Notes under the pieces: model-generated
The model's database searches: none
Told to the model about the DNA's origin: nothing
The model's input: only the letters and a program-made list of their open reading frames with translations
Assembly (NCBI GenBank): GCA_945827525.1
Contig: CALZPA010000010.1
Location: 1-34,067, forward strand
DNA length: 34,067 nucleotides
Source of the DNA: an uncultured Lentisphaeria bacterium
Lineage (GTDB): Bacteria; Verrucomicrobiota; Lentisphaeria; Oligosphaerales; Oligosphaeraceae
Reading direction: 5' to 3'
In this document: in pieces, positions 10,996 through 26,004 of the stretch
Layout of the letters: every line of letters begins with the position of its first letter
Numbering within the stretch: position 1 is the first letter of the stretch
Made by a program: the position numbers and the translations under genes

Positions 10996-12381
10996 ATGTC
11001 AAGCCGTCTGAGATTTCTGGCTGTGTGGTGTTTGCTGTGCGTGCTCGCGCTGGGCGCGGACAGCCCCAAGTATGTGTTTCTGTTCATTGGCGACGGGATG
11101 TCGCTGCCGCAGCGGACGCTGGCGGAGTCGTTTCTGAAGCGGACTGCGGGCGAGGGTCAGCAGTTGCTCATCAACCACCTGCCGGTCCGCGCGAGCACGC
11201 GCACGAGCTCGGCGAACGCGCTGATCACGGACTCGGCGGCGTCGGGCACGGCCATCGCCTGCGGCGAGAAGACGAACAACGGCATCATCGGGCTGGCTCC
11301 GGACGGCAAGCGTCGGCTGGAGTCCATGGCGTATGTGGCTCAGCGCGCGGGGCGCAAGGTCGGCATCGTGACGAGCGTGACGATTAACCACGCGACGCCG
11401 GCGTCGTTCTACGGCCATCGTCCGAACCGGTCGCAGTACTACGAGCTGGGGCTGGACCTCGTCGCCTCGAACTTCGACTACTTCGCGGGCGGCGGCTGCG
11501 CCAAGAACGACGACCGCAAGAACCCAGCCTACAAGGGCGACATCTACGAGCTGGCTCGGCAGGCGGGGTACACTGTGACCTCCACGCGCGAGGAGTTCGC
11601 GCGGCTGGCTCCGGGGGCGGGCAAGGTCTTCGCCCGCGGCGCGTCCGGCGCGCTGCCGCCCGCTATCGACCGCGACAGCCAGACCATCGAGCTCCACGAG
11701 TTCGTCGCCAAGGGCATCGAGCTGCTCGACAACCCCAAGGGGTTCTTCCTGATGTGCGAGGGCGGGGCCATCGACTGGCGCGGGCACGCCAACGACGCGG
11801 CCGGCTCCGTCCATGAGTCGCTGGCGCTGGACAAGGCCGTCAAGGTGGCCTACGAGTTCGCGCGGCGTCATCCGGACGAGACGCTCATCGTCGTCACCGG
11901 CGACCATGAGACGGGCGCGCTGACGCTGGGCTTCGCCAACACGGGCTACGAGGAGCGACTGGAGCTGCTGGCGCGTCAGACCTGCTCCGTCGACCGCTTC
12001 AACAGCGTGCTGCGTGAGCAGCTCCGGAACGCGGGCGACAAGGCGAGCTTCGAGACCTGCGGCATCCCGGCGCTGCGCCGTGTGTTCGGGCTGGATTTCG
12101 AGGGCCAGGGGCCGCTGGCCGTGAAGGAGGCCGAGATGAAGGCGCTGCGGAAGGCCTACGAGGACAGCGTGGCCGCATGGAAGGCCAAGAAGAGCATGGA
12201 CGCGCTCAAGCTGGCCGGACTGAAGCTGTTCAACGGCAAGTGCGGCGCGGTGTGGCACTCGGGCGGCCACAGCGCGTTGCCCGTCATCACCACCGCCTAT
12301 GGCGTCGGCTCCGAGCGCTTCGCCGGCGACTATGAGAACACGCACCTCGCGGTGACGTTCAAGCAGCTGCTGGCGCAATGA
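10996..12381 (+). CDS. phoA: Secreted alkaline phosphatase
   Basis: This 461-residue phosphomonoesterase of the alkaline phosphatase superfamily would release phosphate from organic esters in the periplasm. The ATG at 10996 opens into a signal peptide (MSSRLRFLAVWCLLCVLALG); an in-frame GTG at 10927 would overlap the region just behind the promoter and add a non-signal extension. Landmarks are metal ligand Asp33 in FIGDGMS, nucleophile Ser80 in ITDSAASGTA, NHATPASFYGH (His132), a metal-binding Glu254 in EGGAIDW, VTGDHETG (Asp303, His304) and the late GGHS His (about 425). AAGG lies about 11 nt upstream of the start. The stop overlaps the start of the next gene. All expected catalytic residues appear present. 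The gene symbol denotes the family, not proven orthology. Confidence 0.93.
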   Translation: MSSRLRFLAVWCLLCVLALGADSPKYVFLFIGDGMSLPQRTLAESFLKRTAGEGQQLLINHLPVRASTRTSSANALITDSAASGTAIACGEKTNNGIIGLAPDGKRRLESMAYVAQRAGRKVGIVTSVTINHATPASFYGHRPNRSQYYELGLDLVASNFDYFAGGGCAKNDDRKNPAYKGDIYELARQAGYTVTSTREEFARLAPGAGKVFARGASGALPPAIDRDSQTIELHEFVAKGIELLDNPKGFFLMCEGGAIDWRGHANDAAGSVHESLALDKAVKVAYEFARRHPDETLIVVTGDHETGALTLGFANTGYEERLELLARQTCSVDRFNSVLREQLRNAGDKASFETCGIPALRRVFGLDFEGQGPLAVKEAEMKALRKAYEDSVAAWKAKKSMDALKLAGLKLFNGKCGAVWHSGGHSALPVITTAYGVGSERFAGDYENTHLAVTFKQLLAQ

Positions 12382-13541
12382 GCCGTCTGACGGACGAGCG
12401 GGACGGCGGCTGGCGGCGTGTGCTGCTCGGCCGCCGTGGCGACTGGCTGGCCTGCGTGGTCTTCCTGCTGCTGTGCGCGCTGCTGTGGCGTCTGGAGCTG
12501 ATGCCGCCGCGCGACCCGGAGCCTGGCACGAAGGAGCGGGCCGTGGTGCTGTCGGTGGACGACAGCGGCGTGGAGCGCATGGGGCTGATGCTGATGGGCA
12601 CGCAGCGTCTCGAGGTCGAGGTGCGGACGGGGCGTCATGCCGGCCAGCGCTTTCCCGCCGCCAACGAGCTGCGCGCGCAGTTGGATCTGGACAAGATGTT
12701 CGTCCCCGGCGATGCGGTCTGGGTGGCGATGCTGCACGGCGCGGAGCCTGGCGTGACGGTGATACAGGCGCAGGACCATTACCGTCTGGGCTGGACGGCG
12801 CTGCTGTTCGGGCTGTTCTGCGTGCTGCTGCTGGCGTTCGCGGGGGTGACGGGGCTGAAGGCGCTGGTGTCGTTTGTGTTCAGTTGCGTGGCGGTGTGGC
12901 GTCTGGTGGTGCCGCTGTGTCTGCGTGGCCATTCGCCGCTGTCGGTGTCGGTGGTGTGCGTGTGTCTGCTGACGGCGGTCATCATCTTTCTGGTCGCGGG
13001 GCTGACGCGCAAGGGCGTGGTGGCGTTTCTGGGGTCGATGCTGGGGGTGCTGGCGGGCTGTGCGCTGGCGGAGGTGTTCACGGTGCTGTTCCATGTGAGC
13101 GCGGCGGGGATGCCGTATGCGCCGGCGCTGCTCTACTCGGGCTATGAGCGTCTTGATCTGCAGGCGCTGTTCGCGGGGGCCATCATTCTGGCCTCGTCGG
13201 GCGCGGTCATGGATTTGGGCATGGATGTGGCGGCGGGCATGGAGGAGGTGTCGCGGCATCGTCCGGGCATTTCCGGCCGTGAGCTGACGCTTTCCGGTCT
13301 TCGCATTGGGCAGAGTGTGGTGGGCACGATGACGACCACGCTGCTGCTGGCGTACTCGGGCGGCTATCTGACGCTGCTGATGGTCTTTGCGGCGCAGGGG
13401 ACGGGGCTGGGTGACATCATCAACAACCCGTATGTGGCGGCGGAGTGCGTCAAGACGCTGGTGGGCAGCTTCGGGCTGGTGCTGGTGGCGCCGTTCACGG
13501 CGCTGGTGGGCGGTGTGCTCCACGCCTGGCGGAGGGCATGA
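12378..13541 (+). CDS. YibE/F-like multi-pass membrane protein
   Basis: This 387-residue integral membrane protein resembles the YibE/F family (PF07907), whose molecular function is not established. An N-terminal transmembrane helix (about residues 21-41) precedes an extracytoplasmic domain (about 45-130), followed by about six or seven further helices. Recognisable family features are GRHAGQRFPAANEL in the soluble part and SSGAVMDLGMDVAAGMEE in the membrane part. The ATG overlaps the phosphatase stop as ATGA (12378-12381), so the two are translationally coupled. That coupling hints at a shared role, perhaps phosphate or ion handling, but this is a guess. A strong hairpin follows the gene. 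Confidence 0.85.
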   Translation: MSRLTDERDGGWRRVLLGRRGDWLACVVFLLLCALLWRLELMPPRDPEPGTKERAVVLSVDDSGVERMGLMLMGTQRLEVEVRTGRHAGQRFPAANELRAQLDLDKMFVPGDAVWVAMLHGAEPGVTVIQAQDHYRLGWTALLFGLFCVLLLAFAGVTGLKALVSFVFSCVAVWRLVVPLCLRGHSPLSVSVVCVCLLTAVIIFLVAGLTRKGVVAFLGSMLGVLAGCALAEVFTVLFHVSAAGMPYAPALLYSGYERLDLQALFAGAIILASSGAVMDLGMDVAAGMEEVSRHRPGISGRELTLSGLRIGQSVVGTMTTTLLLAYSGGYLTLLMVFAAQGTGLGDIINNPYVAAECVKTLVGSFGLVLVAPFTALVGGVLHAWRRA

Positions 13542-13612: not shown

Positions 13613-13659
13613 AGACAGGGCGGCCCGCCTCCCGGAAGGGGGGGCGGGCCGCCCTGTCT
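13613..13659. terminator. Strong hairpin terminator between convergent genes
   Basis: AGACAGGGCGGCCCGCC and its exact reverse complement form a 17-bp perfect stem with a 13-nt loop. The sequence then reads CGTTTCCATTTTTG. The hairpin lies between the end of the YibE/F-like gene (plus) and the end of the glycyl radical enzyme gene (minus), where a shared terminator is expected. The T run is separated from the stem on the plus side, so termination efficiency is uncertain. Confidence 0.75.
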
Positions 13660-13681: not shown

Positions 13682-15703
13682 TCAGAGCGCGTGTTCGGTG
13701 CGTTTGATGACCTCGAGCTGGACGGGTCTGGAGAGTCGGGTGAAGTACTCGCTGTAGCCGCCGATGCGGACCATGAGGTGGGGGTGTCGTTCGGGATGGT
13801 CGAGTGCGTCGCGCATGGCCTCGGCGTCGAGGACGGAGACCTGGACCTGGAGTCCGCCGCGCTTGAAGTAGGTCATGAGCATGGCCTTGGTGAGGGCGCG
13901 GGCCTGTGGGGTGGCGAGCATGTCGCGCTGGAGTCGGAGGTTGAGGACGGGTGTGCCGAGGGCGCGCTGCTGGTCGGGCTTGGTGACGGAGTTGAGGAGG
14001 GCGGTGGGGCCGTTGTGGTCGGTGCCCTGGACGGCGCCGAAGGAGTCGCCGACGGGTGAGCCTGCGAGTCGGCCGTCGGCGGTGGCGGGGATGTAGGAGC
14101 CGCGCTCGGCGTAGGTGGTGAAGAGGTTGATGAAGGGGATGTAGGTGCGGTCAGGCCGGGACTCGGCGCGGACGATGGCGAAGACGTCGTCGATGAAGCG
14201 GGTGGCGAGGGCGTCGATGTCGTCGTGGTCGTTGCCGAATTTGGGTGTGGCCTTGAGGAGTTCGAGGAGTTCGGGGTCGTTCTGGAAGTTGTCGTCGAGG
14301 GCGTTTGCGAGTCGGTGGATGGAGAACTGTCCGTCGTAGGCGAGTCGGATGTTGTAGATGGCGTTGACGGCGTTGGACAGTCCGGTGACGCCGATGAGTC
14401 CGAGGTTGTAGCGGGCGCCGCCGGCGTTGAATTCGGTGTGGGTGTCGAGGCAGTCCTCGGTGAAGAGGGTGCGGATGAGGTTGGGCTGGTACATGGCGGC
14501 GACCTGGTGTCCGAGCTGGCAGCGGTCGACCTCCTGGTGGGCCTTTTCGCGGAGGGCGTCGAGGTAGTGCCGGTAGAAGTCGTCGAAGGAGTTGTGGAGG
14601 AGCTGTGTGGAGGCGAGGACGTTGAGTGCGTGGAGGTCGCCGTCGGTGGAGCCGACGTTGGACTTGCCCATGATCATGAGTTCGGTGCAGCCGCCGTAGG
14701 AGAGTCCTGGGAAGTCCTCGGGTCGGACGTTCCACTGGGTGTCGAGTCCGCGGTAGTAGTTGGGTCGGAAGTAGAGTGCGGGGCTGGTGTTTCCGGAGAG
14801 CCAGGAGTCGAAGATGTCGTCCCAGGCCTGCTGTGGGGTGTCGTCGTCGATGAGGGCGGAGGCTCCGGGTCGTGAGAGGTTGCGCTGGGCGAGGAGGGCG
14901 TGGTGCATCCAGGGCAGATGGGTGTCGAAGGTGACGTTCCAGACGCCGAGGAGGTCGAAGGACTGCCAGAATTCGCGGAAATGCGCCTGGATGTCGTCGT
15001 CGGAGAGGTTGTGGTTGGGGTATTGCTGGAGGACGGCGTCCATTCGTCCGGCGGAGTCGGGGTCGTCGATGAACCAGAAGTAGTTGAAGTAGACGAAGGC
15101 CTGCCGGAGGTTCTGGGCGGGGTGGTGGGCCATGTGGGCGAAGATGTCGGCGAGGTCGTCGGCGCCGGCGTTGCGGAGGAGCGTCTCGCAGCGTCCGATG
15201 TGGGTCTGGATGGCGCGGACGACCTCGAGGAGCGGGGCGCAGAACCTGGGATGGGCGGGGAGGTCGCTCTGGAGTCGTTCGGCGTAGCGGTCGAGCCCGT
15301 CGTGGAGGATGCGCTCGTAGTTGAGGACGGAGTGGGTCCAGCCACGGAGGTTGTTGACGGTGAAGGCCTTTTCCTGCGTGGCCATGCGGAGCTGCTTGTC
15401 GAGGGTGGGGTCGAGGGCGATGTGGGCGGCGTCGGCCTTCTTGCGGCAGAGCTCGTAGGCGGGCTGGCTGAGGCGGGTGGAGTAGTAGTAGGAGAAGGTG
15501 AAGACGGCGTCGAAGCGCGGGTTCCAGATGGAGGCTCGTCCCTGTGGGTAGAGGCGTGTGCCGCGGTATTCGGGTAGGGGGGCCCGGGTGAGGATCTCCG
15601 AGAGGGCGTGCGCGTGGCGCGCCAGGTAGGTCTCGTTGGGGTGGCGGAAGAAGCCGGCGGCAAAGTGCTCGCCGATGGCGGTGAAGAGCTCGTGGAGGCG
15701 CAT
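13682..15703 (-). CDS. Glycyl radical enzyme, dehydratase/lyase type (PFL-like family)
   Basis: This 673-residue glycyl radical enzyme carries a C-terminal MVRIGGYSEYF, with Gly649 as the probable radical site. The thiyl Cys is Cys339 in YGGCTELM, and Glu341 follows two residues later. A single Cys with this Cys-x-Glu pattern is known from glycerol/diol dehydratase and choline TMA-lyase; pyruvate formate-lyase has two adjacent Cys. The chemistry is therefore probably elimination (C-O or C-N cleavage), but the substrate is unknown. Typical members have about 780-850 residues, so this one is short. The frame runs far upstream without stops; the ATG at 15703 is where family-like sequence starts (MRLHELFTAIG), and a -10 box lies about 58 nt before it. 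The ribosome binding site is poor. No radical-SAM activating enzyme gene, which such enzymes require, lies in the window. Confidence 0.88.
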   Translation of the reverse strand: MRLHELFTAIGEHFAAGFFRHPNETYLARHAHALSEILTRAPLPEYRGTRLYPQGRASIWNPRFDAVFTFSYYYSTRLSQPAYELCRKKADAAHIALDPTLDKQLRMATQEKAFTVNNLRGWTHSVLNYERILHDGLDRYAERLQSDLPAHPRFCAPLLEVVRAIQTHIGRCETLLRNAGADDLADIFAHMAHHPAQNLRQAFVYFNYFWFIDDPDSAGRMDAVLQQYPNHNLSDDDIQAHFREFWQSFDLLGVWNVTFDTHLPWMHHALLAQRNLSRPGASALIDDDTPQQAWDDIFDSWLSGNTSPALYFRPNYYRGLDTQWNVRPEDFPGLSYGGCTELMIMGKSNVGSTDGDLHALNVLASTQLLHNSFDDFYRHYLDALREKAHQEVDRCQLGHQVAAMYQPNLIRTLFTEDCLDTHTEFNAGGARYNLGLIGVTGLSNAVNAIYNIRLAYDGQFSIHRLANALDDNFQNDPELLELLKATPKFGNDHDDIDALATRFIDDVFAIVRAESRPDRTYIPFINLFTTYAERGSYIPATADGRLAGSPVGDSFGAVQGTDHNGPTALLNSVTKPDQQRALGTPVLNLRLQRDMLATPQARALTKAMLMTYFKRGGLQVQVSVLDAEAMRDALDHPERHPHLMVRIGGYSEYFTRLSRPVQLEVIKRTEHAL

Positions 15704-15760
15704 GGGGGATGGTTCTGCTTGCTGGGGTGTGGGGGGCAGGATGGAGGGCGTCAGGGGGCA

Positions 15761-15766
15761 AATATA
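15761..15766 (-). promoter_or_regulatory. Possible -10 box for the glycyl radical enzyme gene
   Basis: On the minus strand TATATT lies within the AT-rich GCATTATATTTG, in the 155-nt gap before the glycyl radical enzyme gene. It matches the -10 hexamer seen at three other promoters in this window. No good -35 box lies at 16-18 nt, so an extended or activator-dependent promoter would be needed. Confidence 0.4.
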
Positions 15767-15858
15767 ATGCGGCTGGCGTGTTTCACTATGGCAATCTGGC
15801 TGAAAAGCATCGGGTGGATGCGCTGATTTCGCCGCGGTTCGTCTGGAGTTGCGGCGTG

Positions 15859-18009
15859 TCAGGGGGTGTGGTTCTTCCGTTCGAGGGCGACGGTCTGGCC
15901 GCGTGTGAGGTTCAGGGTGACGGTGTGGTCGCTGGCGGCGACGGGGACGGGGGCGTCGGTGAAGGCGTCGTGCCAGGCGGAGGCGGCCTGTTCGGGGGTG
16001 AGGTGGAGGGTGAGGGGGCCGTCCCATTTGGCGTGGACGGCGAGCCAGTTTTGGGCGGCGCTGACGTGGTCTCCGCGTCGGGAGTAGAGGTGGACGCCGG
16101 CATCCTGGGCGAAATGCTGGAGGAGGGCGGCGGGGAGGGTGGGGGAGGCGGACCAGACGGAGGTCCAGGAGGGGAAGGTCTTGCGGAGGAGGGTGGCGCC
16201 GTCGGAGCCCTGCCGCAGGGGGACGGCGGTGGCGTCGACGCCGTAGCCGAGCGTCTCGGCGTCGGGGTCGGCGCCGTAGAGGCGCGGGCTGACGCTGCGG
16301 TGGGGGCCGTAGAGGAGCCGCTGTCCGGTGACGAGCGTCTCGGTGAGCATGGAGGAGGTGCAGGCGCAGGGGACGAGGCGTATGCCGGTCATGCGGCAGA
16401 CATGTTCGGTGGAGAGGCCGTCCTGGTGCCAGACGTCGGGGGCGTGGACCCAGACGAGGGTTCGTCCGTCGGCCTTTAGGTGGCGGTCGATGAGTTCGCG
16501 GAGGTCGTCCGCGATGAGGTGGGCGTTGGGGAGCAGGACGAGGCGGTACTGGCCGAGGCGTCCCTGGCTGACGAGCTGCGGGAGGTCCTCGAGGCGGAAG
16601 GCGTCGAAGGGGGCGCCGATGGCGGCGAGCTCCTGGAGCTGGAGTTCGAGCATGGAGCCGGAGAGGACGTCGAGGGTGCGCGAGACGGAGAGCGAGCGGT
16701 CGGAGATGAGGACGGCGACCTGGGCGATGGACTGGCGGTCGTCGAGGTGTCGCTGGGCGAAGCGGGTCAGTTGGCGGATGGTCTCCATGAGGTCGGGGGA
16801 GCGGAAGGAGCCTTCGCCGAAGAGGTCCATGAACCACTGGGTGCCTCCGGAGCGCCAGGCGTCGAGGAAATTCCGTCGGAGGAGGTTGTCGGTCTGCTCG
16901 AGGGAGGCGGGCATGACGTTGTGGCGGGTGGCGGAGAGGTGGGTGCCGGTGTCGTCCTCGGCGTAGTAGAGCTTGTGGTGGCAGAGGATGGAGCCGGGCA
17001 TGACCTGTCCGTGGCAGACGCCGCCGGGCTGGCGGGCCTGGTAGGCGATGGGTGCGGCGAGGTAGTCGAGGTCTGGGCAGTCGAGGACGGTCTGGTGTTC
17101 GTCGTGGGCGACGGCGAAGTGGGACTGGCTGTTGGCGGGGAGACTGACGTAGGCGTAGAAGGCGCCGAAGAGCTTCTGTCGTCCGAGTCGGCGGAGGGTG
17201 TCCTTGACGGCATGCGCCTGTTCGGTGACGAGGCTGGCCATGAGGTGGCACTGGCACTGGTAGAAGTCGATGACGGCGCGGTCGCGGAGGGGATGGAGGA
17301 GGGAGTCGGGGGAGAAGCCGACGAAGGCGTGTGGCGGCGGGGTGGTGGCGCGGTCAAGGGAGGCGTCGGGGTCGTTCCAGGCGTGTCGGAGCTCGTCGTC
17401 GGAGCGGTAGCGGGTGCGGAGGAAGTCGCGGAAGGCCAGCTGCATGGCGGGGGTGTAGTCGCCGGCGTAGTGGTTCCAGAACCAGACGTGCTCGGCGCAG
17501 TTGCCGAAGCCGGAGTGGTATCCGAGGATGTGGTCGGGCCAGGTGCGTTCGGCGTGCTCGACGAGGCTCTGGAGGCGTTCGAGCGCGGTCTGGGTCCAGA
17601 GTCGGGAGGCGGGGGTTGCGGTTGGGATGCGCGTGAGCTGTCCGGCGCGGATGCTGTGCATGACGAGGGTCTCGTCGGGGTGTGCGTCGAGCCAGAGGGT
17701 GGTGGGGATGAGTCGGAGGCGCGGGATGACGAGGGCGTTGGGGCAGGCGCTGACGATGGCCTCCATGCTGGCGTCGAGGAAGTCGGTGGTCATGGGCTGG
17801 AAGGCGTTTCCCTCGAAGGTGCGTCCACCGTCGCCGAGGTCGATGTTGCCGATGAAGGAGAAGCAGGTGACGCCTGCGTCGGCGAAGGCTCTGGCGTCGT
17901 CGCGGGTGAGGTGGCGGTTCCAGTGCATGACGCCGGTGATGGGGTGTCCGTCGACATGGATGGCGGTGGCGCCGCCATGGGGGGCGATGGTGATGCGTGG
18001 GGCGGTCAT
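15859..18009 (-). CDS. GH42-like (clan GH-A) glycoside hydrolase, larger paralog
   Basis: This 716-residue protein has a TIM-barrel-like N-terminal half followed by a probable Rossmann-like trimerisation domain (about residues 420-560, with YRLVLLPNAHLI) and a small C-terminal beta domain with AQDAGVHLYSR. This is the layout of GH42-type beta-galactosidases. Candidate catalytic residues are Glu173 in FGNCAEHVW (acid/base) and Glu351 in YYAEDDTG (nucleophile); both have counterparts in the smaller neighbour. No signal peptide is seen, so it acts in the cytoplasm on an imported saccharide. It starts 10 nt after the stop of the other hydrolase gene. It is too diverged for a substrate call, and beta-galactoside cleavage is only a guess. 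Confidence 0.7.
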   Translation of the reverse strand: MTAPRITIAPHGGATAIHVDGHPITGVMHWNRHLTRDDARAFADAGVTCFSFIGNIDLGDGGRTFEGNAFQPMTTDFLDASMEAIVSACPNALVIPRLRLIPTTLWLDAHPDETLVMHSIRAGQLTRIPTATPASRLWTQTALERLQSLVEHAERTWPDHILGYHSGFGNCAEHVWFWNHYAGDYTPAMQLAFRDFLRTRYRSDDELRHAWNDPDASLDRATTPPPHAFVGFSPDSLLHPLRDRAVIDFYQCQCHLMASLVTEQAHAVKDTLRRLGRQKLFGAFYAYVSLPANSQSHFAVAHDEHQTVLDCPDLDYLAAPIAYQARQPGGVCHGQVMPGSILCHHKLYYAEDDTGTHLSATRHNVMPASLEQTDNLLRRNFLDAWRSGGTQWFMDLFGEGSFRSPDLMETIRQLTRFAQRHLDDRQSIAQVAVLISDRSLSVSRTLDVLSGSMLELQLQELAAIGAPFDAFRLEDLPQLVSQGRLGQYRLVLLPNAHLIADDLRELIDRHLKADGRTLVWVHAPDVWHQDGLSTEHVCRMTGIRLVPCACTSSMLTETLVTGQRLLYGPHRSVSPRLYGADPDAETLGYGVDATAVPLRQGSDGATLLRKTFPSWTSVWSASPTLPAALLQHFAQDAGVHLYSRRGDHVSAAQNWLAVHAKWDGPLTLHLTPEQAASAWHDAFTDAPVPVAASDHTVTLNLTRGQTVALERKNHTP

Positions 18010-18019
18010 GGGGAGGCGG

Positions 18020-19864
18020 TCAGCGGAGGAGGTAGAGCTTGGTGTCGGGGCCGTCGAAGTGGTCGGTGAAGTGGTCGGTGTCGGTGGCGACGAGGGTGTC
18101 GGAGTAGAGTTCGCGGATGGTGTGGGCGGGTTTGGGCAGGCGGATGGTGACGTCGGCGGGTTCGGCGCGGTGTGCCATGAGGAGTTCGGGCGAGGCGCAG
18201 AAGACGGTCTGGTCGTCGTCGGCGTAGAGGTGGACGCCGGCGTCCTGCGCGAGCTGGCGGAAGCGCTGTTTGTTCAGGAGCGTGGGCTGGAAGCAGGCGG
18301 CGGCGAGGGTTCCGGAGGGGAGGGTGGCGCGATGGAATTCGGCGGTTTCGGGGGGGCAGCCGGCGAGTTCGGCGGCGAGTTCGGGGTCGAGCTTTCCGTC
18401 ATGGTCGAGGGCTGGTGGGAGCATCCAGAGGACGGCGTTTCCGGGCTTGAGGACATGGGTACGGAGCCACTGGAGTCGGGAGTCGTCGAGGCAGGAGGGG
18501 TTCTGGAAGATGAAGAGCCGGTACTGGTCGGCGCCGTCCTGGATGAGGTCGTCGAGGGTGGCGTTGTCGAAGGGGATGCCGTAGGTGTAAAGGGTCTGCC
18601 GGAAGGGCCAGGCGAGGTTGGCGATGCCTGGTGCGTGTCGGTTGAGGTGGTAGCTGGCGTCGGGGTCGAAGACGAAGACGGCCTGTGCGGCGGAGCCGGA
18701 GGAGGTGAGGCAGTGCTGGCTCCAGATTTCGCGGGAGCGCCGGAGGGCGCTGCGGATTTCGGGTGTCTTGTAGGACTGTCCCCAGATGTTGAACCACCAG
18801 GTGGAGAAATGGTGGACGAGGCAGAGTCCGGTCTCGCGTCGGACCATGGCGACGTCGGCGGCGGTGGCGTCGGGCTTGACCCAGATGCCGCCTTCGAGGG
18901 CGATGTCGGGTGAGACGTGTCGGTTGGAGGTGGTGGTGAGTCGGTCGTTCTCGTGGATGAAGCCGAAGCCGAAGCGTCTGTCGGTGCGGTAGACAGTGGT
19001 ATAGCCGCTGGCGGAGCCCATCTGTGGGGCGCAGTTGCAGGCGGCGCCGATGAGGAAGTCGGGCGGCTGGGTGCGGAAGAGTCGTTCGCAGTCCATCTGT
19101 CCGGTGGGGAGCATGGCGTGGACGTGTCCGAAGAACATGCCGAGTCGGACGTCGGGGCGGGTGTGCTGCCGGGCCTCGCGGACGAAGTGGATGGCGAGTT
19201 CGGTGGTCAGCTCGTTGACGTAGCGGAGCCACTGGATGAGGTGGCGGTCCTGGTCGGGATGGTAGAGCCAGGGGTAGGGCGAGGAGGAGGAGCGGAGCTC
19301 GTCGGCGCGGGGGATGGGGAGGAGGGGGAGCTGGCGCTGGCGGCACCAGTCGGGGTAGTGGGCGCTCTTGAGGGAGGAGGGCTTGGCGTTGTCGGCCTCG
19401 ATCCACTCCTGGGTGCGTCCGCAGGCGAGGACATAGGCGATGATGCGGTCGGGCCAGGTCGTCTCGCAGTGGTCGAGGAAGGCGTGGAGGTAGGCGGTGA
19501 CCTGTCGGCGCCATTCGGGATGGAGGGAGCAGGAGCTGACGTCGTAGAAGGAGTCGATGGAGAGTCGCCGGGCGAGCCAGAGCGGGGAGTTGAGGTCGAC
19601 GAGGACGATGAGCCTGGCGTTCGGGCAGTGGCGGAGGATGTCGCGGAACTGGCGGTCGACGAGGGCGAAGTCGTAGGTGTCGTCGTAGCGCCAGACGTTG
19701 GGGTAGTTGGTGTAGGGCTCGCCCAGGGAGTTGGTGGTGTTCATGGGCGAGACGCAGACGGCGTCGACGCCGATGTCGGACATGAAGTCGAGCGTCTCCC
19801 AGTCGGCGTTGAGATGGGGGCCGTAGGGAGGGCGGAACGCGAACAGGGGACGGTCAAAGTCCAT
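18020..19864 (-). CDS. GH42-like glycoside hydrolase, smaller paralog
   Basis: This 614-residue protein is a diverged relative of the 716-residue neighbour. It shares the barrel region with candidate acid/base Glu153 in GRTQEWIE and nucleophile Glu305 in FIHENDR. It also shares the late Rossmann-like part (YRLFIFQNPS) and the C-terminal AQDAGVHLY motif. It lacks a signal peptide. Tandem placement with a 10-nt gap to the larger paralog implies co-expression and perhaps successive cleavage of one glycan or joint oligomers. The gene follows the phosphodiesterase gene by 26 nt. The family assignment is by fold pattern and motif, and the substrate is unknown. Confidence 0.65.
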   Translation of the reverse strand: MDFDRPLFAFRPPYGPHLNADWETLDFMSDIGVDAVCVSPMNTTNSLGEPYTNYPNVWRYDDTYDFALVDRQFRDILRHCPNARLIVLVDLNSPLWLARRLSIDSFYDVSSCSLHPEWRRQVTAYLHAFLDHCETTWPDRIIAYVLACGRTQEWIEADNAKPSSLKSAHYPDWCRQRQLPLLPIPRADELRSSSSPYPWLYHPDQDRHLIQWLRYVNELTTELAIHFVREARQHTRPDVRLGMFFGHVHAMLPTGQMDCERLFRTQPPDFLIGAACNCAPQMGSASGYTTVYRTDRRFGFGFIHENDRLTTTSNRHVSPDIALEGGIWVKPDATAADVAMVRRETGLCLVHHFSTWWFNIWGQSYKTPEIRSALRRSREIWSQHCLTSSGSAAQAVFVFDPDASYHLNRHAPGIANLAWPFRQTLYTYGIPFDNATLDDLIQDGADQYRLFIFQNPSCLDDSRLQWLRTHVLKPGNAVLWMLPPALDHDGKLDPELAAELAGCPPETAEFHRATLPSGTLAAACFQPTLLNKQRFRQLAQDAGVHLYADDDQTVFCASPELLMAHRAEPADVTIRLPKPAHTIRELYSDTLVATDTDHFTDHFDGPDTKLYLLR

Positions 19865-19890
19865 GGTGCAGTCTTGGGATGGGAGTGGGT

Positions 19891-20640
19891 TCAGTGCCAG
19901 GGGACGTTTCGCTCGTCGAGGAGTGGGCAGATGACGTCGGGGCAGTTGGTGGTGATGGAGTCGCAGGTGGTGGCGAGGGCGCGTTCCAGCTCGTCCGGGG
20001 TGTCGACGGGATAGAGGTCGACGGCGAGTCCGCGCCGCTGGAGGTCAGCGACGGCCTCGGGGGTCGCGTCCCTGGTCCAGAGGCAGAGCTTGTTGACGAG
20101 CGTCTCGGGGGGCTGTCCGAGGGGGGCGGGGACGTAGCTGTCGGGGAAGCCCTGGAGGAGGAGCGTGGGTTTGAGCCGGCGCAGGAGCTGAAGCTGTCGG
20201 TAGTGGAAGGAGAGGATGAGGCAGCGGTCGAGGATGCCGTGGCGGCGGCAGGCGTCGAGGGTCAGGCGGGTGCAGCCGTCGTCGTCCTCCTTGAGCTCGA
20301 TGAGGGCGAAGGCGTCGTGGGGTCGGGCGCCGTAGATGACGTCGAGCGTCTCGTCGAGGGTGGGGATGGCGGTGTGGGCGAATTCGGGGGCCTTCCAGGC
20401 GCCGAAGTCGAGGGCGCGGAGCTCGTCGAGGGTGAGGTCGTGGACGGAGCCATGGCCGTTGGAGCAGCGGTCGAGGTCGTGGTCATGGGTGATGACGAGG
20501 TGTCTGTCCCGGGTGGGATGGACGTCGAATTCGAGGGTGGCCAGTCCGAATTCGAGTGCCTTCCGGAAGGAGACGAGGGTGTTCTCGGGATAGCGCGAGC
20601 GGAAGCCGCGGTGGCCGACGACGGTGAGGGGCTTGGTCAT
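19891..20640 (-). CDS. Cytoplasmic glycerophosphodiester phosphodiesterase
   Basis: This 249-residue protein is of the GDPD/UgpQ type. In this family glycerophosphodiesters are hydrolysed to sn-glycerol 3-phosphate and an alcohol. The catalytic pattern is complete: HRG (His10, Arg11), PENT (Glu19), LEFDV (metal ligands Glu37 and Asp39), THDHDLDR (His52) and IELKED further on. It has no signal peptide and is of UgpQ length, so it is intracellular. The frame is open well upstream; the ATG at 20640 is chosen because HRG must lie near the N-terminus. No strong ribosome binding site is seen. It sits between a sugar-acid dehydratase gene and two glycoside hydrolase genes, suggesting a glycerol-linked carbohydrate as substrate. 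Confidence 0.9.
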   Translation of the reverse strand: MTKPLTVVGHRGFRSRYPENTLVSFRKALEFGLATLEFDVHPTRDRHLVITHDHDLDRCSNGHGSVHDLTLDELRALDFGAWKAPEFAHTAIPTLDETLDVIYGARPHDAFALIELKEDDDGCTRLTLDACRRHGILDRCLILSFHYRQLQLLRRLKPTLLLQGFPDSYVPAPLGQPPETLVNKLCLWTRDATPEAVADLQRRGLAVDLYPVDTPDELERALATTCDSITTNCPDVICPLLDERNVPWH

Positions 20641-20657
20641 GGGGGAAGGGGAAATGG

Positions 20658-20691
20658 CGCCCCGGCGGCGCCTGGGGAGGCCACCGGGGCG
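20658..20691 (-). other. Intergenic hairpin between dehydratase and phosphodiesterase genes
   Basis: CGCCCCGG and CCGGGGCG form an 8-bp perfect stem with an 18-nt loop in the 59-nt gap. It is followed by TTTCCCCTTCCCCC rather than a clean T run. It could be a partial terminator or an RNA-stability element that sets relative expression of the two genes. Confidence 0.35.
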
Positions 20692-20699
20692 TTCGGGGG

Positions 20700-21875
20700 C
20701 TAGTCGTTGACGATGCGGTAGTAGAAGTCCGCGTCGGGGGGGCGGATGTTGGTGAGGTCTCCGCGGTAGTGGCGGAGGTAGGTGGGGCTGAACGGATGCT
20801 TGAGGATTTCGTCCTCGTTGAGCTCGATGCCGAGTCCGGGTCGGTCGGGGATGACCATTCTGCCGTTGTGGACGGTGAGGTCCTCGTCGCAGATGAGGCG
20901 TCGGTAGGGGACGTCGGTCATCATCATCTCGAGCATGACGAAGTTGGGGACGCAGGCGGCGAGCTGGAGGGTGGCGGCGTTGGCGACGGGGCCGGAGGGG
21001 TTGTGGGGGCAGAAGCCGATGTGGCGGGCCTCGGCCTCGGCTCCGAGGAGTCTCATCTCGAAGAGTCCGCCGGCGTGTGAGATGTCGGGCTGGATGTAGT
21101 CGGTGCAGTTGAGGTCGAAGAACTGGCGGTACTCGTAACGGTTGTAGAGGCGTTCGCCGGCGGCGAGGGGGACTCTGACGCGCTCCTTGACCTCGCGGAG
21201 TCCGTCCTTGTCGTCCGGGGGGATGGGCTCCTCGAACCAGAAGATGTCGAAGTCCTCGAGCCGCTGTCCGATGCGGACGGCGGTGGGGATGTCGAAGCGT
21301 CCGTGTCCCTCGATGAGGAGGTTGACGTCCTCGCCGACGGTCTCGGCGACCTTGGCGACGCACTCTATGGCCTGGTTGAGGTCATGCTTGGAGATCTGCT
21401 GCCAGGCCTTGCCGAAGGGGTCCCACTTGCAGCCGGGGAAGCGGCGGTCGCGGAGCTGCCGCGCCTTCTCGGCGAATTCGTCGGGCGTCTTGGCGGGGGA
21501 GAACCAGCCGTTGACGTAGATGGGGATCTCGTCTCGGACCTTGCCTCCGAGGAGCTGGTAGACGGGGACGCCGAGGGCCTTTCCCTTGATGTCCCAGAGG
21601 CACATCTCGACGCCGGCGAGGGCGCTCATGAGGACGGGGCCGCCGCGCCAGTAGGCGTCGCGGTAGCAGTCGTGGCGGAAGGCCTCGATGTTGTGCGGGT
21701 CCTTGCCGATGAGGTAGTGCTCGAGGTCGTGGATGGCGGCCTCGACCGTGTGCTCCTTGTATTCGAGCGTGGCCTCTCCCCAGCCGTGGATGCCGGCGTC
21801 CGTCTCGACCTTGACGAAGACGAAGTTGGTTCTGAAGGCGTGGCAGAGGAAGGTGCGGATGGCGGTGACTTTCAT
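20700..21875 (-). CDS. Enolase-superfamily sugar-acid dehydratase, galactonate dehydratase-like
   Basis: This 391-residue member of the mandelate racemase/enolase superfamily would dehydrate an acid sugar to a 2-keto-3-deoxy acid. Candidate metal ligands are Glu189 (LIEGHGRF), Glu215 (WFEEP) and Glu241 (AAGERLY); catalytic bases are His191 and His291 (CPHNPSGP), with IQPDISHAGG between. The spacing of these residues matches E. coli DgoD as I recall it (183, 185, 209, 235, 285), offset by six. GERLYNRYEYRQF also resembles DgoD, so D-galactonate or a close relative is the likely substrate. One oddity is Glu189, where DgoD has Asp. No sugar-acid kinase or aldolase gene is adjacent. The SDR gene lies 54 nt upstream in the same direction. 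Confidence 0.85.
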   Translation of the reverse strand: MKVTAIRTFLCHAFRTNFVFVKVETDAGIHGWGEATLEYKEHTVEAAIHDLEHYLIGKDPHNIEAFRHDCYRDAYWRGGPVLMSALAGVEMCLWDIKGKALGVPVYQLLGGKVRDEIPIYVNGWFSPAKTPDEFAEKARQLRDRRFPGCKWDPFGKAWQQISKHDLNQAIECVAKVAETVGEDVNLLIEGHGRFDIPTAVRIGQRLEDFDIFWFEEPIPPDDKDGLREVKERVRVPLAAGERLYNRYEYRQFFDLNCTDYIQPDISHAGGLFEMRLLGAEAEARHIGFCPHNPSGPVANAATLQLAACVPNFVMLEMMMTDVPYRRLICDEDLTVHNGRMVIPDRPGLGIELNEDEILKHPFSPTYLRHYRGDLTNIRPPDADFYYRIVND

Positions 21876-21929
21876 GGTGTGCCCTGTCGTGGTGTGGGGA
21901 ATGGGGGACGGGAGCGGTCCGGTGTGCGC

Positions 21930-22670
21930 TCAGGGCGCGAAGTAGACGCCGCCGTTGACGTTGATGGTCTCGCCGTTGACGAAGCCGTTGTTGCAGGCGA
22001 AGATGACGGCGTCGGCGATCTCCTCGCTGGTGGCGGCCCTGCGGACGGGGATTTCGGCGGTGGCCTGGTCAATCTGCTCCTGGGTGAGCCGTTTGCCGAT
22101 GTTCTCGGTGACGACCATTCCGGGGCAGATGGTGTTGGCGGTGATGCCGTAGGGTGCGCCGTTGTAGGCGAACGAGCGGGTGATGCCGTGCATGCCGAGC
22201 TTGGAGACGCCGTAGGCGACCATGTGGGGCTCGGCGGGGATGAAGGAGCGGACGGAGGCGATGTTGATGATGCGCCCGAAGCGGTTCTCCTTGGCCTGCT
22301 TGAAGAATTCGTAGGTGCAGAGGTAGGCGCCCTTGAGGTTGACGTCCATGACCATGGACCACCACTGGCCCTCCGTGTACTCCGGCTTGCGGAAGTAGGG
22401 GTCGATGCGGGCGTTGTTGACCAGGATGTGCAGCGGCGCCAGGCGGGCGATCAGGGCGGCGACGGCCTGCTCGTCCGTGACGTCGCAGATCTCGACGGAG
22501 GCCTTGCCTCCGTTGGCGACGATCTCGTCGGCGACGGCCTGTGCCTTGGCGGGGCTGTGGGCGCAGTTGACGATGACCTCGGCGCCCTCGCGGGCGAGCT
22601 CCAGGCAGATGACGCGGCCGATGCCCTGCGAGCCGCCGGTGACCAGTGCCTTCATTCCTGCGAATTTCAT
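21930..22670 (-). CDS. SDR-family oxidoreductase
   Basis: This 246-residue classical short-chain dehydrogenase/reductase has the Rossmann dinucleotide motif TGGSQGIG (about residues 10-17), an NNAR motif where NNAG is usual, an active-site region IASVRSF, and catalytic YGVSK. The end reads NVNGGVYFAP, close to the typical NVDGG ending. AAGGA lies about 8 nt before the ATG. Beside a galactonate-type dehydratase it may oxidise an aldose or reduce a keto-acid intermediate, for example as a galactose dehydrogenase. The substrate cannot be read from the sequence. It is also similar in layout to FabG, but location speaks against a fatty-acid role. Confidence 0.88.
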   Translation of the reverse strand: MKFAGMKALVTGGSQGIGRVICLELAREGAEVIVNCAHSPAKAQAVADEIVANGGKASVEICDVTDEQAVAALIARLAPLHILVNNARIDPYFRKPEYTEGQWWSMVMDVNLKGAYLCTYEFFKQAKENRFGRIINIASVRSFIPAEPHMVAYGVSKLGMHGITRSFAYNGAPYGITANTICPGMVVTENIGKRLTQEQIDQATAEIPVRRAATSEEIADAVIFACNNGFVNGETINVNGGVYFAP

Positions 22671-22724: not shown

Positions 22725-24494
22725 TCAGCGCCGGGCGGCTCGGCCGCGCACCTTGGCCAGGGCCTTGCCGACGGTCCACTGGAGCATGAGGCGCGGCTCC
22801 TCGAGGCGCAGCAGCCAGGCGCCGATGGCGTAGGCGGCGACGCCCGCCAGGCCGGCGACGCCGATGTGGACGGCGAGACGGACGCGCGAGACGGCCTTCA
22901 GCGCGTCCGCGGCGCCGCCCTCGGCGACGGCGGCCAGCCCGCTGGGGAGGATGGCGTCGATGCCGCGCAGGGCGGCCCAGGCGGCACCGGCGACGAGGAC
23001 GGCGAGGAGGAGCGTCCGGGCGAGGAAGGCGAGCGTCTGGGCGCCCTCGAACATGGGCGTCGAGCGGCGCAGATGGAGGATGAGGAGCAGGCTCTTGATG
23101 AAGCGCGAGGCGACGAAGCCGAGGGAGACGGTCAGGAGCGCGCCGCGGGCGTCGACGCCGACCATGACGATGAGGACGTATGAGATGATGACGGAGAGGA
23201 GGCTGGAGCTGATGCCGATGACGGTGACGGCGACGGTCTTCTCGTCGGCGAAGGCGCCCTGCATGAGGACGCACTCGATGGCGGCGACGGGGAGGACGAG
23301 GCTGTAGCAGATGGTGGAGAGTCCGGCCATGGAGGCGACCTCGACGCCGGTCTTGCCGCCGGCGAAGATGAGGACGGTGAGGGGGCCTCCGACGACGAGG
23401 ATGGCGGCGGAGACGGGGATGAAGACGGCGAGCAGCAGGCGGCAGGAGTTGCCGATGACCTTGCCGAGCTCCTGGCGGTCGTTCTTGTTGACGAGTTCGC
23501 AGAGGAAGGGGAAGAGGGCGATCTGGAGGGCGTAGGGGACGAGCCACTGGATGGTGGTGAAGAGCTTGCGTCCGAGGTCGTTGGCCTTGACGACGGCCTC
23601 GTAGTTGGGGATGTTGTCCCCGGTGAGGATGTAGATGTTGTTGAAGACGTCGCGGAATTTGGCGAAGAGGATGCCGGCGAGGAGCGGGAGCATGAGCCAG
23701 AGCATCCTGCGGAACGCGGGGTTGCGCCAGTCGAGCGAGGGGCGGAGGAGGCGCAGCTTGCCGGCGAGGCCGCAGAGGTGCGTGAGGAGCTTGGCGACGC
23801 TGCCGGCCAGGATGCCGAGGCAGAGCGCGTTCAGGCCCATGTCCAGCCTCCAGCCGACCAGCAGGCCGATGACGATGCAGATTTTGGTGGAGGCGTCGCC
23901 GAACGCGGCGAGGAAGAATTTCTTGTAGCCGTTGAGGAGGACGTAGGTGGTGGAGCCGAGGGAGAGGAAGAGGAGTCCGGGGGCGATGATGCGCAGGCCG
24001 TTGCGGAGGGGGATGTAGACGCTGTTGAAGTCGGCGAGCTGTGCCTGGTGGAGGGCGAGGGTTGCGGCGTCGGCTCCCTCGGGCGGCGGGGCGGGGGCGC
24101 GGAGCTGGGTGACGAGGCCGATGTAGGCGTCGGGGAAGCAGACGATGGAGGCGCAGACAACCAGCAGCAGGAGCGACTGGAAGGAGAGCGTCACGTTGGT
24201 GAAGCGCCAGGCGGCCTCCTCCGACTGCGAGTCCTTCTCCTTCACGAACAGCGTCAGGAAGGTGGGGCCGATGACCTCCTCCCCGATGAGGAACAGCGAG
24301 TTCAGGATGGCGCCCATGGCGATGGCGATGATGGCGGTGTACTCGGCGTCGTCCAGGAACTGGGCGCAGCACTTGGCCTGTATCAGGCCCGCGAACTTCA
24401 GCAGGATGTGGGCGATGCCGACGACGAAGCTGGCCTTGATGATGCGGTCGGCCAGGGACTTGCTCTTGGTGCTGGGGGCGCTGGGCTGGGACAT
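22725..24494 (-). CDS. murJ: MurJ-like lipid II flippase (MOP superfamily)
   Basis: This 589-residue polytopic membrane protein has about 14 predicted helices. The N-terminal block (about residues 18-75) follows the MurJ pattern: a first helix with Gly-rich start, a region with a disordered-linked pore segment, and LFLIGEEVIGPTFLTLF in the place of the RLFAEGAFSQAFVPVF-like segment. MurJ moves lipid II across the inner membrane for peptidoglycan synthesis. A polysaccharide flippase of the Wzx type is the main alternative. It is longer than usual (about 510-530), mainly from a loop near residues 130-155 and an extended C-terminus. A promoter lies upstream. The symbol is tentative because the sequence is diverged. 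Confidence 0.72.
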   Translation of the reverse strand: MSQPSAPSTKSKSLADRIIKASFVVGIAHILLKFAGLIQAKCCAQFLDDAEYTAIIAIAMGAILNSLFLIGEEVIGPTFLTLFVKEKDSQSEEAAWRFTNVTLSFQSLLLLVVCASIVCFPDAYIGLVTQLRAPAPPPEGADAATLALHQAQLADFNSVYIPLRNGLRIIAPGLLFLSLGSTTYVLLNGYKKFFLAAFGDASTKICIVIGLLVGWRLDMGLNALCLGILAGSVAKLLTHLCGLAGKLRLLRPSLDWRNPAFRRMLWLMLPLLAGILFAKFRDVFNNIYILTGDNIPNYEAVVKANDLGRKLFTTIQWLVPYALQIALFPFLCELVNKNDRQELGKVIGNSCRLLLAVFIPVSAAILVVGGPLTVLIFAGGKTGVEVASMAGLSTICYSLVLPVAAIECVLMQGAFADEKTVAVTVIGISSSLLSVIISYVLIVMVGVDARGALLTVSLGFVASRFIKSLLLILHLRRSTPMFEGAQTLAFLARTLLLAVLVAGAAWAALRGIDAILPSGLAAVAEGGAADALKAVSRVRLAVHIGVAGLAGVAAYAIGAWLLRLEEPRLMLQWTVGKALAKVRGRAARR

Positions 24495-24642: not shown

Positions 24643-26004
24643 TCAGAGGTCGCGGGTGATGTTGCGGACCCACTGGTATCGGCGGTAGTGGAGGCAGACC
24701 CAGGGGATCTTGCCGACCTCGTCGAGGCAGGTGCAGGCGTAGCAGGCGAGGACGGGCCAGCCGAGGTGGAAGGCGCCGAGGAAGGCGCAGGGGAGGGCGA
24801 TGCCGTACATGGCGACCAGAAGGCTGTAGACGTCGAAGCGGGTGTCGCCGCCGGCGGTGAAGATGCCGTTGATGACCATGGTGCAGAAGCTGCGCCCGAT
24901 CATGTAGACGGAGAGGATGACGAACATGCCGACCATGTACTCGTGCGCCTGGGGCGTCAGCTTCATGGTGCGGGAGAGGATGGGGATGCAGGCGAGCGTG
25001 AGGAGCGTGCAGGCGAAGCCGACCACGAAGGCCAGGACGAAGACGCGGTCGCCGTAGCGGCGTCCCGTCTCCAGGCGTCCCGCGCCCAGCTCGTTGCCGA
25101 TGAGGATGGCCGAGGCTCCGCAGAAGCCGTTGCAGAGGCAGCAGAGCAGGTCGCGGACGACGGCGGCGATGGAGTTGCCGGCCGCCGCGTCCGGGCCCAG
25201 GTGCCCCATCACGGCGGTGTAGGAGGTGAAGCCGCCGCCCCACAGCAGGCTGGCGCCCAGGATGGGCAGCGTGTAGTGCCAGAAGTCGCGGGACAGGGCG
25301 CGGTCCAGGCGCAGCACCGCCCGGGCCGTCAGCGGGATGAAGTCGGGGCCGCGGCTGCCCAGGACGCACCAGGCCAGCTCCAGCACGCGGGCGCAGACCG
25401 TCGCCAGGGCCGCGCCGCGCACGCCCATCGCCGGCGCGCCCAGCAGCCCGAAGATGAACACCGCGTTCAGCGCGATGTTCACCACGACCGCCGCCGAGCT
25501 GATCCACGCCGAGCGGCTCGCGTGGCCCGTCACGCGCATCACCGACAGGTACGACTGCGAGATGCCCGTCAGCAGGTACGACCAGCTCACCATCTTCAGG
25601 TACTCGACGCCCAGGGACACCAGGGTCGGGTCATGCGCGAACAGCCGCATCAGCGCCTCGGGCGCCAGCAGGCAGCCCGCGAAGAACGCCACCGAGACGA
25701 TGGCGGACAGCCGGACGCTGATGCCGAAGATGCGCTCCAGCACCGCGCGGTCCCCCTTGCCCCAGTACTGGGCGCCCAGCACCCCGACGCCCCCCGCGAT
25801 GGCGAACAGCACCATGTTCTGGATGAACTGGACCTGCGTCGCCAGCGAGACGGCCGCCATCGAGTTCTGGTCCGAGGCGCCCAGCATGGCCGCGTCGGCG
25901 GCCGCCACCAGGGCCAGCATCAGGCTCTGCAGCGCCAGCGGCAGGCTCAGCTTCAGAAATTCGCGGTTGAAGGTGCGGTCGCAGAACAGGTCTCGGAATG
26001 TCAT
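24643..26004 (-). CDS. MATE-family multidrug/cation efflux transporter
   Basis: This 453-residue inner-membrane protein has about 12 transmembrane helices and fits the NorM/DinF-type MATE family, which exports organic cations or drugs using a sodium or proton gradient. The N-terminal helix pair LSLPLALQSLMLALVAAADAAMLG matches the usual MATE opening, and GVGVLGAQYWGKGD matches the conserved loop after helix 2. The second half repeats the pattern (ASAILIGNELGAGR). The frame is open upstream, and the ATG at 26004 gives the family's normal start. It lies 46 nt after the zeta-like toxin gene. Its codon usage changes along the gene, from mostly G-ending in the first two thirds to mostly C-ending near the C-terminus. 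Confidence 0.88.
   Translation of the reverse strand: MTFRDLFCDRTFNREFLKLSLPLALQSLMLALVAAADAAMLGASDQNSMAAVSLATQVQFIQNMVLFAIAGGVGVLGAQYWGKGDRAVLERIFGISVRLSAIVSVAFFAGCLLAPEALMRLFAHDPTLVSLGVEYLKMVSWSYLLTGISQSYLSVMRVTGHASRSAWISSAAVVVNIALNAVFIFGLLGAPAMGVRGAALATVCARVLELAWCVLGSRGPDFIPLTARAVLRLDRALSRDFWHYTLPILGASLLWGGGFTSYTAVMGHLGPDAAAGNSIAAVVRDLLCCLCNGFCGASAILIGNELGAGRLETGRRYGDRVFVLAFVVGFACTLLTLACIPILSRTMKLTPQAHEYMVGMFVILSVYMIGRSFCTMVINGIFTAGGDTRFDVYSLLVAMYGIALPCAFLGAFHLGWPVLACYACTCLDEVGKIPWVCLHYRRYQWVRNITRDL

Follow-up and report, generated by a model that had tools for sequence, protein, structure and literature searches.

The window analysed here is a stretch of 34,067 nucleotides on contig C10 of the genome of an uncultured Lentisphaeria bacterium (labelled G000), whose assembly of 3.70 Mb in 355 contigs is 95.3% complete and 2.9% contaminated. 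Six open reading frames (ORFs), all on the minus strand and in one direction, span positions 13682–22670 and encode, in this order, an SDR-family dehydrogenase (SDR), a sugar-acid dehydratase of the enolase superfamily (MLE), a GDPD-family phosphodiesterase (GDPD), two candidate glycosidases (GH_B and GH_A), and a glycyl radical enzyme (GRE), with spacings of 54, 59, 26, 10, and 155 bp, respectively. A Pfam scan of the six ORFs returned SDR, MR_MLE, GDPD, PFL-like, and Gly_radical domains. The ORFs, their common direction, and the span given in the original prediction were confirmed, no N-terminal signal peptide was seen by eye in the six translations, as had also been claimed, and the family assignments (SDR, galactonate-type dehydratase, GDPD, GH42-like pair, and Cys-x-Glu GRE) proved right on the basis of Pfam and NCBIfam searches, fold comparison, and motifs.

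Two features of the locus had been missed. The same-direction run extends upstream of the SDR into a gene for a MurJ-like transporter/flippase (22725–24494, minus strand; PF03023, E = 7.8e-28), located 54 bp upstream of the SDR gene, and then into a co-directional MATE-like gene (24643–26004); because the run also takes in MurJ and MATE, co-direction alone proves little. At the opposite end, a scan for terminator-like structures detected a GC-rich hairpin of 20 pairs (13613–13659, without strand assignment) between convergent genes. This is the longest terminator-like hairpin, lies immediately past the GRE gene, and is a possible transcript end. Elsewhere in the window, a plus-strand alkaline-phosphatase-like gene (10996–12381) overlaps a gene for a YibE/F-like membrane protein (12378–13541), the families of both being assigned by eye, and positions 8504–10498 encode a protein that resembles TonB-dependent receptors and whose start looks like a signal peptide, with no obvious partner near when inspected by eye.

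The locus was compared with 149 genomes, none of them from the genus of the window, including those of Oligosphaera ethanolica DSM 24202 (G006), which belongs to the same family, and Victivallis vadensis DSM 14823 (G056), which belongs to the same class. Genes in related loci were called with a simple script instead of a trained gene finder, and many of these loci end at contig boundaries.

The SDR-MLE pair and its counterparts in other genomes

The SDR (21930–22670, minus strand; 246 aa) matches Pfam adh_short (E = 6.6e-46) and is of a type referred to here as SDR-a. The adjacent MLE (20700–21875, minus strand; 391 aa) is a DgoD/GnaD-like enzyme that passes the cut-off of the NCBIfam D-galactonate dehydratase model NF010624 by a small margin (331.6 bits, cut-off 311). 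Residues E189, H191, E215, E241, and H291 are kept in 75 of 75 homologs and D264 in 74 of 75; by analogy with DgoD, we take E189, E215, and E241 to be metal ligands, and H191 and H291-D264 to act in acid-base catalysis. Both genes are of the types conserved in other loci. MLE homologs of 75–86% identity occur in dozens of Lentisphaeria genomes, usually with an SDR gene before or after them; SDR-a proteins that are 56–67% identical to the window SDR are present at 25 other MLE loci, and a distinct SDR-b type (22–33%) at most of the remaining ones.

A scan of the collection identified 75 loci with a called MLE, comprising 48 from Lentisphaeria (the window included) and 27 from Clostridia, Paenibacillaceae, and one Flavobacteriaceae. 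A co-directional SDR gene lies within 6 kb of the MLE gene at 42 of the 48 Lentisphaeria loci and 25 of the 27 others, tallies which, like those that follow, are counts instead of probabilities because the loci are not independent (some genomes appear twice, and related species have ancestry in common). A co-directional GH16, GH39, or GH42 gene accompanies the MLE at 15 of 48 and 14 of 27 loci, respectively, and a metallo-beta-lactamase-type (MBL) hydrolase, a putative lactonase, at 5 of 48 and 14 of 27. The regulators recorded are of the IclR type at 21 of the Lentisphaeria loci and of the AraC type at 19 of the others. At 36 control loci (563 kb) around the GRE, GH_A, and GH_B homologs of these genomes, no module GH16, GH39, GH42 (family 72), MBL, IclR, or AraC gene was found, and SDRs amounted to two distant ones. 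The module as it occurs in relatives is made up of an IclR or AraC regulator, a GH39, GH16, or GH42 hydrolase, an MBL-type hydrolase, an SDR, and an MLE. Individual loci carry further genes: the Flavobacteriaceae locus (L228) reads SusC, SusD, GH39, SDR, MLE, MFS; DHDPS-type and KDPG-type aldolase genes lie just upstream of the module in a Paenibacillaceae locus (L240); and aldose epimerase and MFS genes accompany it in a Lentisphaeria locus (L206).

None of the IclR, GH39, GH16, and MBL genes lies beside the SDR-MLE pair of the window, which appears to be a reduced version of the module with different, GH42-fold hydrolases. Outside the window, its genome encodes two close homologs of the module GH39, one adjoining an HpcH/HpaI aldolase, and two module-type GH16s. 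The original prediction had listed kinase and aldolase genes as missing, and indeed none is linked to the pair in the window, but both families are present elsewhere in the genome. On contig C75, unlinked to the window, a KDPGal-type aldolase scoring above the subfamily cut-off adjoins a KDG-kinase-like PfkB scoring below the KDG/KDGal kinase cut-offs, and a DGOK-family kinase was sought in the genome and found to be absent. Contig C28 carries the gene of another DgoD-like dehydratase (37% identity to the window MLE) directly beside that of a KDPGal-type aldolase (L283 3592–6729). Because of this second enzyme and its aldolase neighbour, the window MLE may act on another aldonate than D-galactonate, and D-galactose is no more than a plausible substrate of the window pair. 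The earlier proposal that the SDR and dehydratase serve galactose oxidation was upheld as regards an oxidative sugar core, given the NCBIfam cut-off, the conserved pair, and the GH linkage in several phyla, whereas galactose itself is only plausible.

On these data, SDR-MLE forms the centre of a genuine module for sugar oxidation that spans several phyla and is apparently undescribed, as no paper matching the SDR-MLE-GH39/GH16 gene combination was found in the open-access literature. It is quite possible, if a little short of probable, that this module, with an IclR or AraC regulator, GH39 and/or GH16, an MBL-type lactonase, an SDR, and a DgoD-like dehydratase, oxidatively degrades some glycan sugar in Lentisphaeria, Clostridia, Paenibacillaceae, and one Flavobacteriaceae, many of the carriers being gut anaerobes, and that the window holds its reduced form. 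In that case, anaerobes from gut and rumen that belong to several phyla would have in common a way of oxidising a glycan sugar via its aldonate, linked to GH39 and GH16 enzymes. The components of the module are single soluble enzymes, so that its substrate is directly testable, also in the culturable V. vadensis and O. ethanolica.

Hydrolases, phosphodiesterase, and glycyl radical enzyme

GH_A (15859–18009, minus strand; 716 aa) and GH_B (18020–19864, minus strand; 614 aa), both without a visible signal peptide, gave no Pfam match at E ≤ 0.01 and were placed on the GH42 fold by profile and fold comparison; phmmer with GH_A alone returned a chance match only, and a GH_B profile retrieved nothing meaningful among PDB sequences. 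The AlphaFold models (pLDDT 85.1 for GH_A and 83.6 for GH_B) found their best Foldseek matches among GH42 structures (3tts, E = 4.4e-26 for GH_A and E = 8.7e-20 for GH_B), the GH_B model also resembling GH164. Like GH42 beta-galactosidases, both proteins have a three-domain GH42 fold and a Glu pair that is invariant in homologs (E173/E351 in GH_A and E153/E305 in GH_B), the residues of which sit, in the models, after or in the strands holding the acid/base and nucleophile of the clan. Unlike these enzymes, they share about 10–16% identity with solved GH42 structures, and GH_B is assigned outside GH42 proper. Profile searches with the homologs of GH_A led to GH42 beta-galactosidases among PDB entries, and a PF02449 signal is present in 12 of 12 GH_A homologs, although the window protein, at 14.7 bits, stays below the gathering score of 21. 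In view of the fold and the Glu pairs, GH42-like was the right label for both, whereas they are no more than candidate members of GH42 in the strict sense.

Matches to GH_A and GH_B were found in 99 and 92 of the 149 genomes, respectively. The 16 homolog loci contain no MLE, GDPD, or GRE; additional matches there are GH_A-GH_B cross-matches and one distant SDR (L127), and the neighbour that they share, a family-1 regulator at 5 of the 16, is the only one. This is what would be expected if the GHs, GDPD, and GRE were unrelated to SDR-MLE and adjacent to it by chance in a GH-rich genome, an explanation that is nevertheless unlikely, as SDR-MLE recurs beside glycoside hydrolases of three other families. 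By virtue of that repeated linkage, GH_A and GH_B fit the pattern of hydrolases beside SDR-MLE, yet they are not conserved there. Distant GH_A-like (GH42-like) proteins of 22–27% identity are encoded on MLE-module contigs from Clostridia and Lentisphaeria (L243 15661–17916, L231, L186, and L235).

The GDPD (19891–20640, minus strand; 249 aa) matches PF03009 (E = 1.5e-34; 120.7 versus 23.6 bits). Its homologs of 52–57% identity are found elsewhere, none of them beside an SDR, MLE, or GRE, and the 11 nearest GDPD loci hold no other member of the set save a distant GH_A-like protein in L294. A tie to glycerol metabolism was dropped after these neighbourhoods had been read, and the GDPD is probably an incidental neighbour of SDR-MLE.

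The GRE (13682–15703, minus strand; 673 aa) contains PF02901 and PF01228, and its full start agrees with the alignment to relatives. Residues C339 and E341 of the Cys-x-Glu loop, and G648 and G649, are invariant across homologs, and the glycyl motif reads RIGGY. Pfam and NCBIfam scans took residues 60–673 (window 13682–15526), and with the first 59 residues so excluded the protein scored below the cut-offs of both the best curated equivalog (156.3 versus 1100 bits) and the PFL2-3 subfamily model (173.5 versus 678.2), the equivalogs compared including PFL, CutC, HypD, and sulfopropanediol dehydratase. It resembles glycyl radical diol/polyol dehydratases (PflD, glycerol dehydratase, and HypD) in its Cys-x-Glu loop and C-terminal glycyl motif, but is about 100 residues shorter, falls inside a separate Lentisphaeria GRE clade (support 100/100 in a tree of 20 rows), and has no linked activase in the window; four radical-SAM activases score above cut-off in the genome, none of them on contig C10. 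A scan of genome contigs with the GRE as query found no relative, and a literature search on Lentisphaeria GREs yielded nothing direct. Across 20 GRE homolog loci, none of the other five genes was present save one distant SDR. A role of the GRE as part of the sugar locus was dropped after inspection of the 20 neighbourhoods and the tree, and it is probably also an incidental neighbour of SDR-MLE. Both the short GRE and the hydrolases with the GH42 fold stand for further uncharacterised families that are common in Lentisphaeria.

The nearest GRE relatives (57% identity) occur in unrelated contexts in three genomes of one genus (L039–L041). There, a MoxR-type ATPase gene immediately precedes the GRE gene and, in L039, nusA/infB-like genes (assigned by eye) follow downstream, an odd setting for a GRE. 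In some other genomes, members of the window-GRE clade are accompanied by additional GREs, an activase, an Fe-alcohol dehydrogenase, and an IclR-like regulator. Lentisphaeria operons at L044, L045, and L054 (also L052, L055, and L058) combine an IclR-type regulator with up to three different consecutive GREs, an activase, and an Fe-alcohol dehydrogenase, the parts varying by locus.

The company of Fe-alcohol dehydrogenase and activase kept by clade GREs in some relatives would suit a lineage-specific single operon whose six genes jointly degrade some glycoside, with the GRE as the dehydratase of a polyol or keto-deoxy product, as would the common direction, the 10–59 bp gaps among the first five genes, and the hairpin 3' of the GRE. 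Such an operon is improbable, however, given the 155 bp between GH_A and GRE, the position of the nearest GREs beside MoxR, joined in one genome by translation genes, and the MurJ and MATE genes which share the direction upstream. The original prediction of a single locus for galactosyl-glycerol, floridoside, or a glycerophospho-galactoside, in which the hydrolases would free galactose, the GDPD glycerol phosphate, the GRE dehydrate glycerol, and SDR-MLE oxidise galactose, appears very improbable, since the co-directional genes with short gaps and a Cys-x-Glu motif common to diol and polyol dehydratases agree with it, but SDR-MLE is the only conserved pair, the GRE (scanned without its first 59 residues) is below all curated equivalog cut-offs, activase, kinase, and obvious importer genes are absent beside the GRE, specificity is not fixed by the GH42 fold alone, and nothing besides adjacency ties in glycerol, glycerophosphate, or floridoside. 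This prediction was to be refuted if the genes were not kept together in related genomes, which is largely what was found: SDR and MLE stay together, but the loci of GRE (20), GH_A/GH_B (16), and GDPD (11) homologs contain no other gene of the set save distant members of the same broad families.

Proposed pathway and known systems

The block is probably a composite, formed by an SDR-MLE core, which is a reduced copy of the cross-phylum catabolic module, and two candidate glycosidases, with the GDPD and GRE most likely incidental. Counting against this composite reading, the window has no IclR, GH39, GH16, or MBL gene next to SDR-MLE, the MLE may act on another aldonate than D-galactonate in view of the second DgoD-like enzyme, and GH_A and GH_B are not near SDR-MLE elsewhere, save for the distant GH_A-like proteins in a few loci. 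Judging by the enzyme families, the SDR of the window would oxidise an aldose, D-galactose or a close relative of it, at C1 to a lactone, which would open spontaneously or via a lactonase encoded elsewhere (MBL-type in relatives). Dehydration of the aldonate by the DgoD-like MLE would follow and yield a 2-keto-3-deoxyaldonate, from which a kinase and aldolases of the KDPGal or HpcH/HpaI type, whose genes lie elsewhere, would lead to pyruvate and a smaller aldehyde. GH_A and GH_B probably act in the cytoplasm, releasing a sugar with which SDR-MLE may be supplied.

Such a route is closest in outline to the De Ley-Doudoroff (oxidative D-galactose) pathway, which consists of galactose dehydrogenase, a lactonase, DgoD, KDGal kinase, and KDPGal aldolase. 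The likeness lies in the SDR and DgoD-like dehydratase of the window, the MBL-type putative lactonase and aldolases of relatives, and the KDG-kinase-like PfkB and KDPGal-type aldolase of the same genome, whereas the window is without a linked kinase or aldolase, the genome is without a DGOK-family kinase, and the relatives show a linkage to GH39 and GH16. The oxidative L-fucose and L-rhamnose pathways, with an SDR, a lactonase, and an MR_MLE dehydratase, follow the same order of enzyme kinds as proposed here. Unlike in the L-rhamnose pathway, the dehydratase of the window falls well short of the cut-off for L-rhamnonate dehydratases (145.8 versus 393), and unlike in the L-fucose pathway, it has K150-x-D152 in place of K-x-K, the motif of fuconate-type enzymes. 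At L283 3592–6729, a further MR_MLE_C-containing protein is encoded beside the second DgoD-like dehydratase and the KDPGal-type aldolase.
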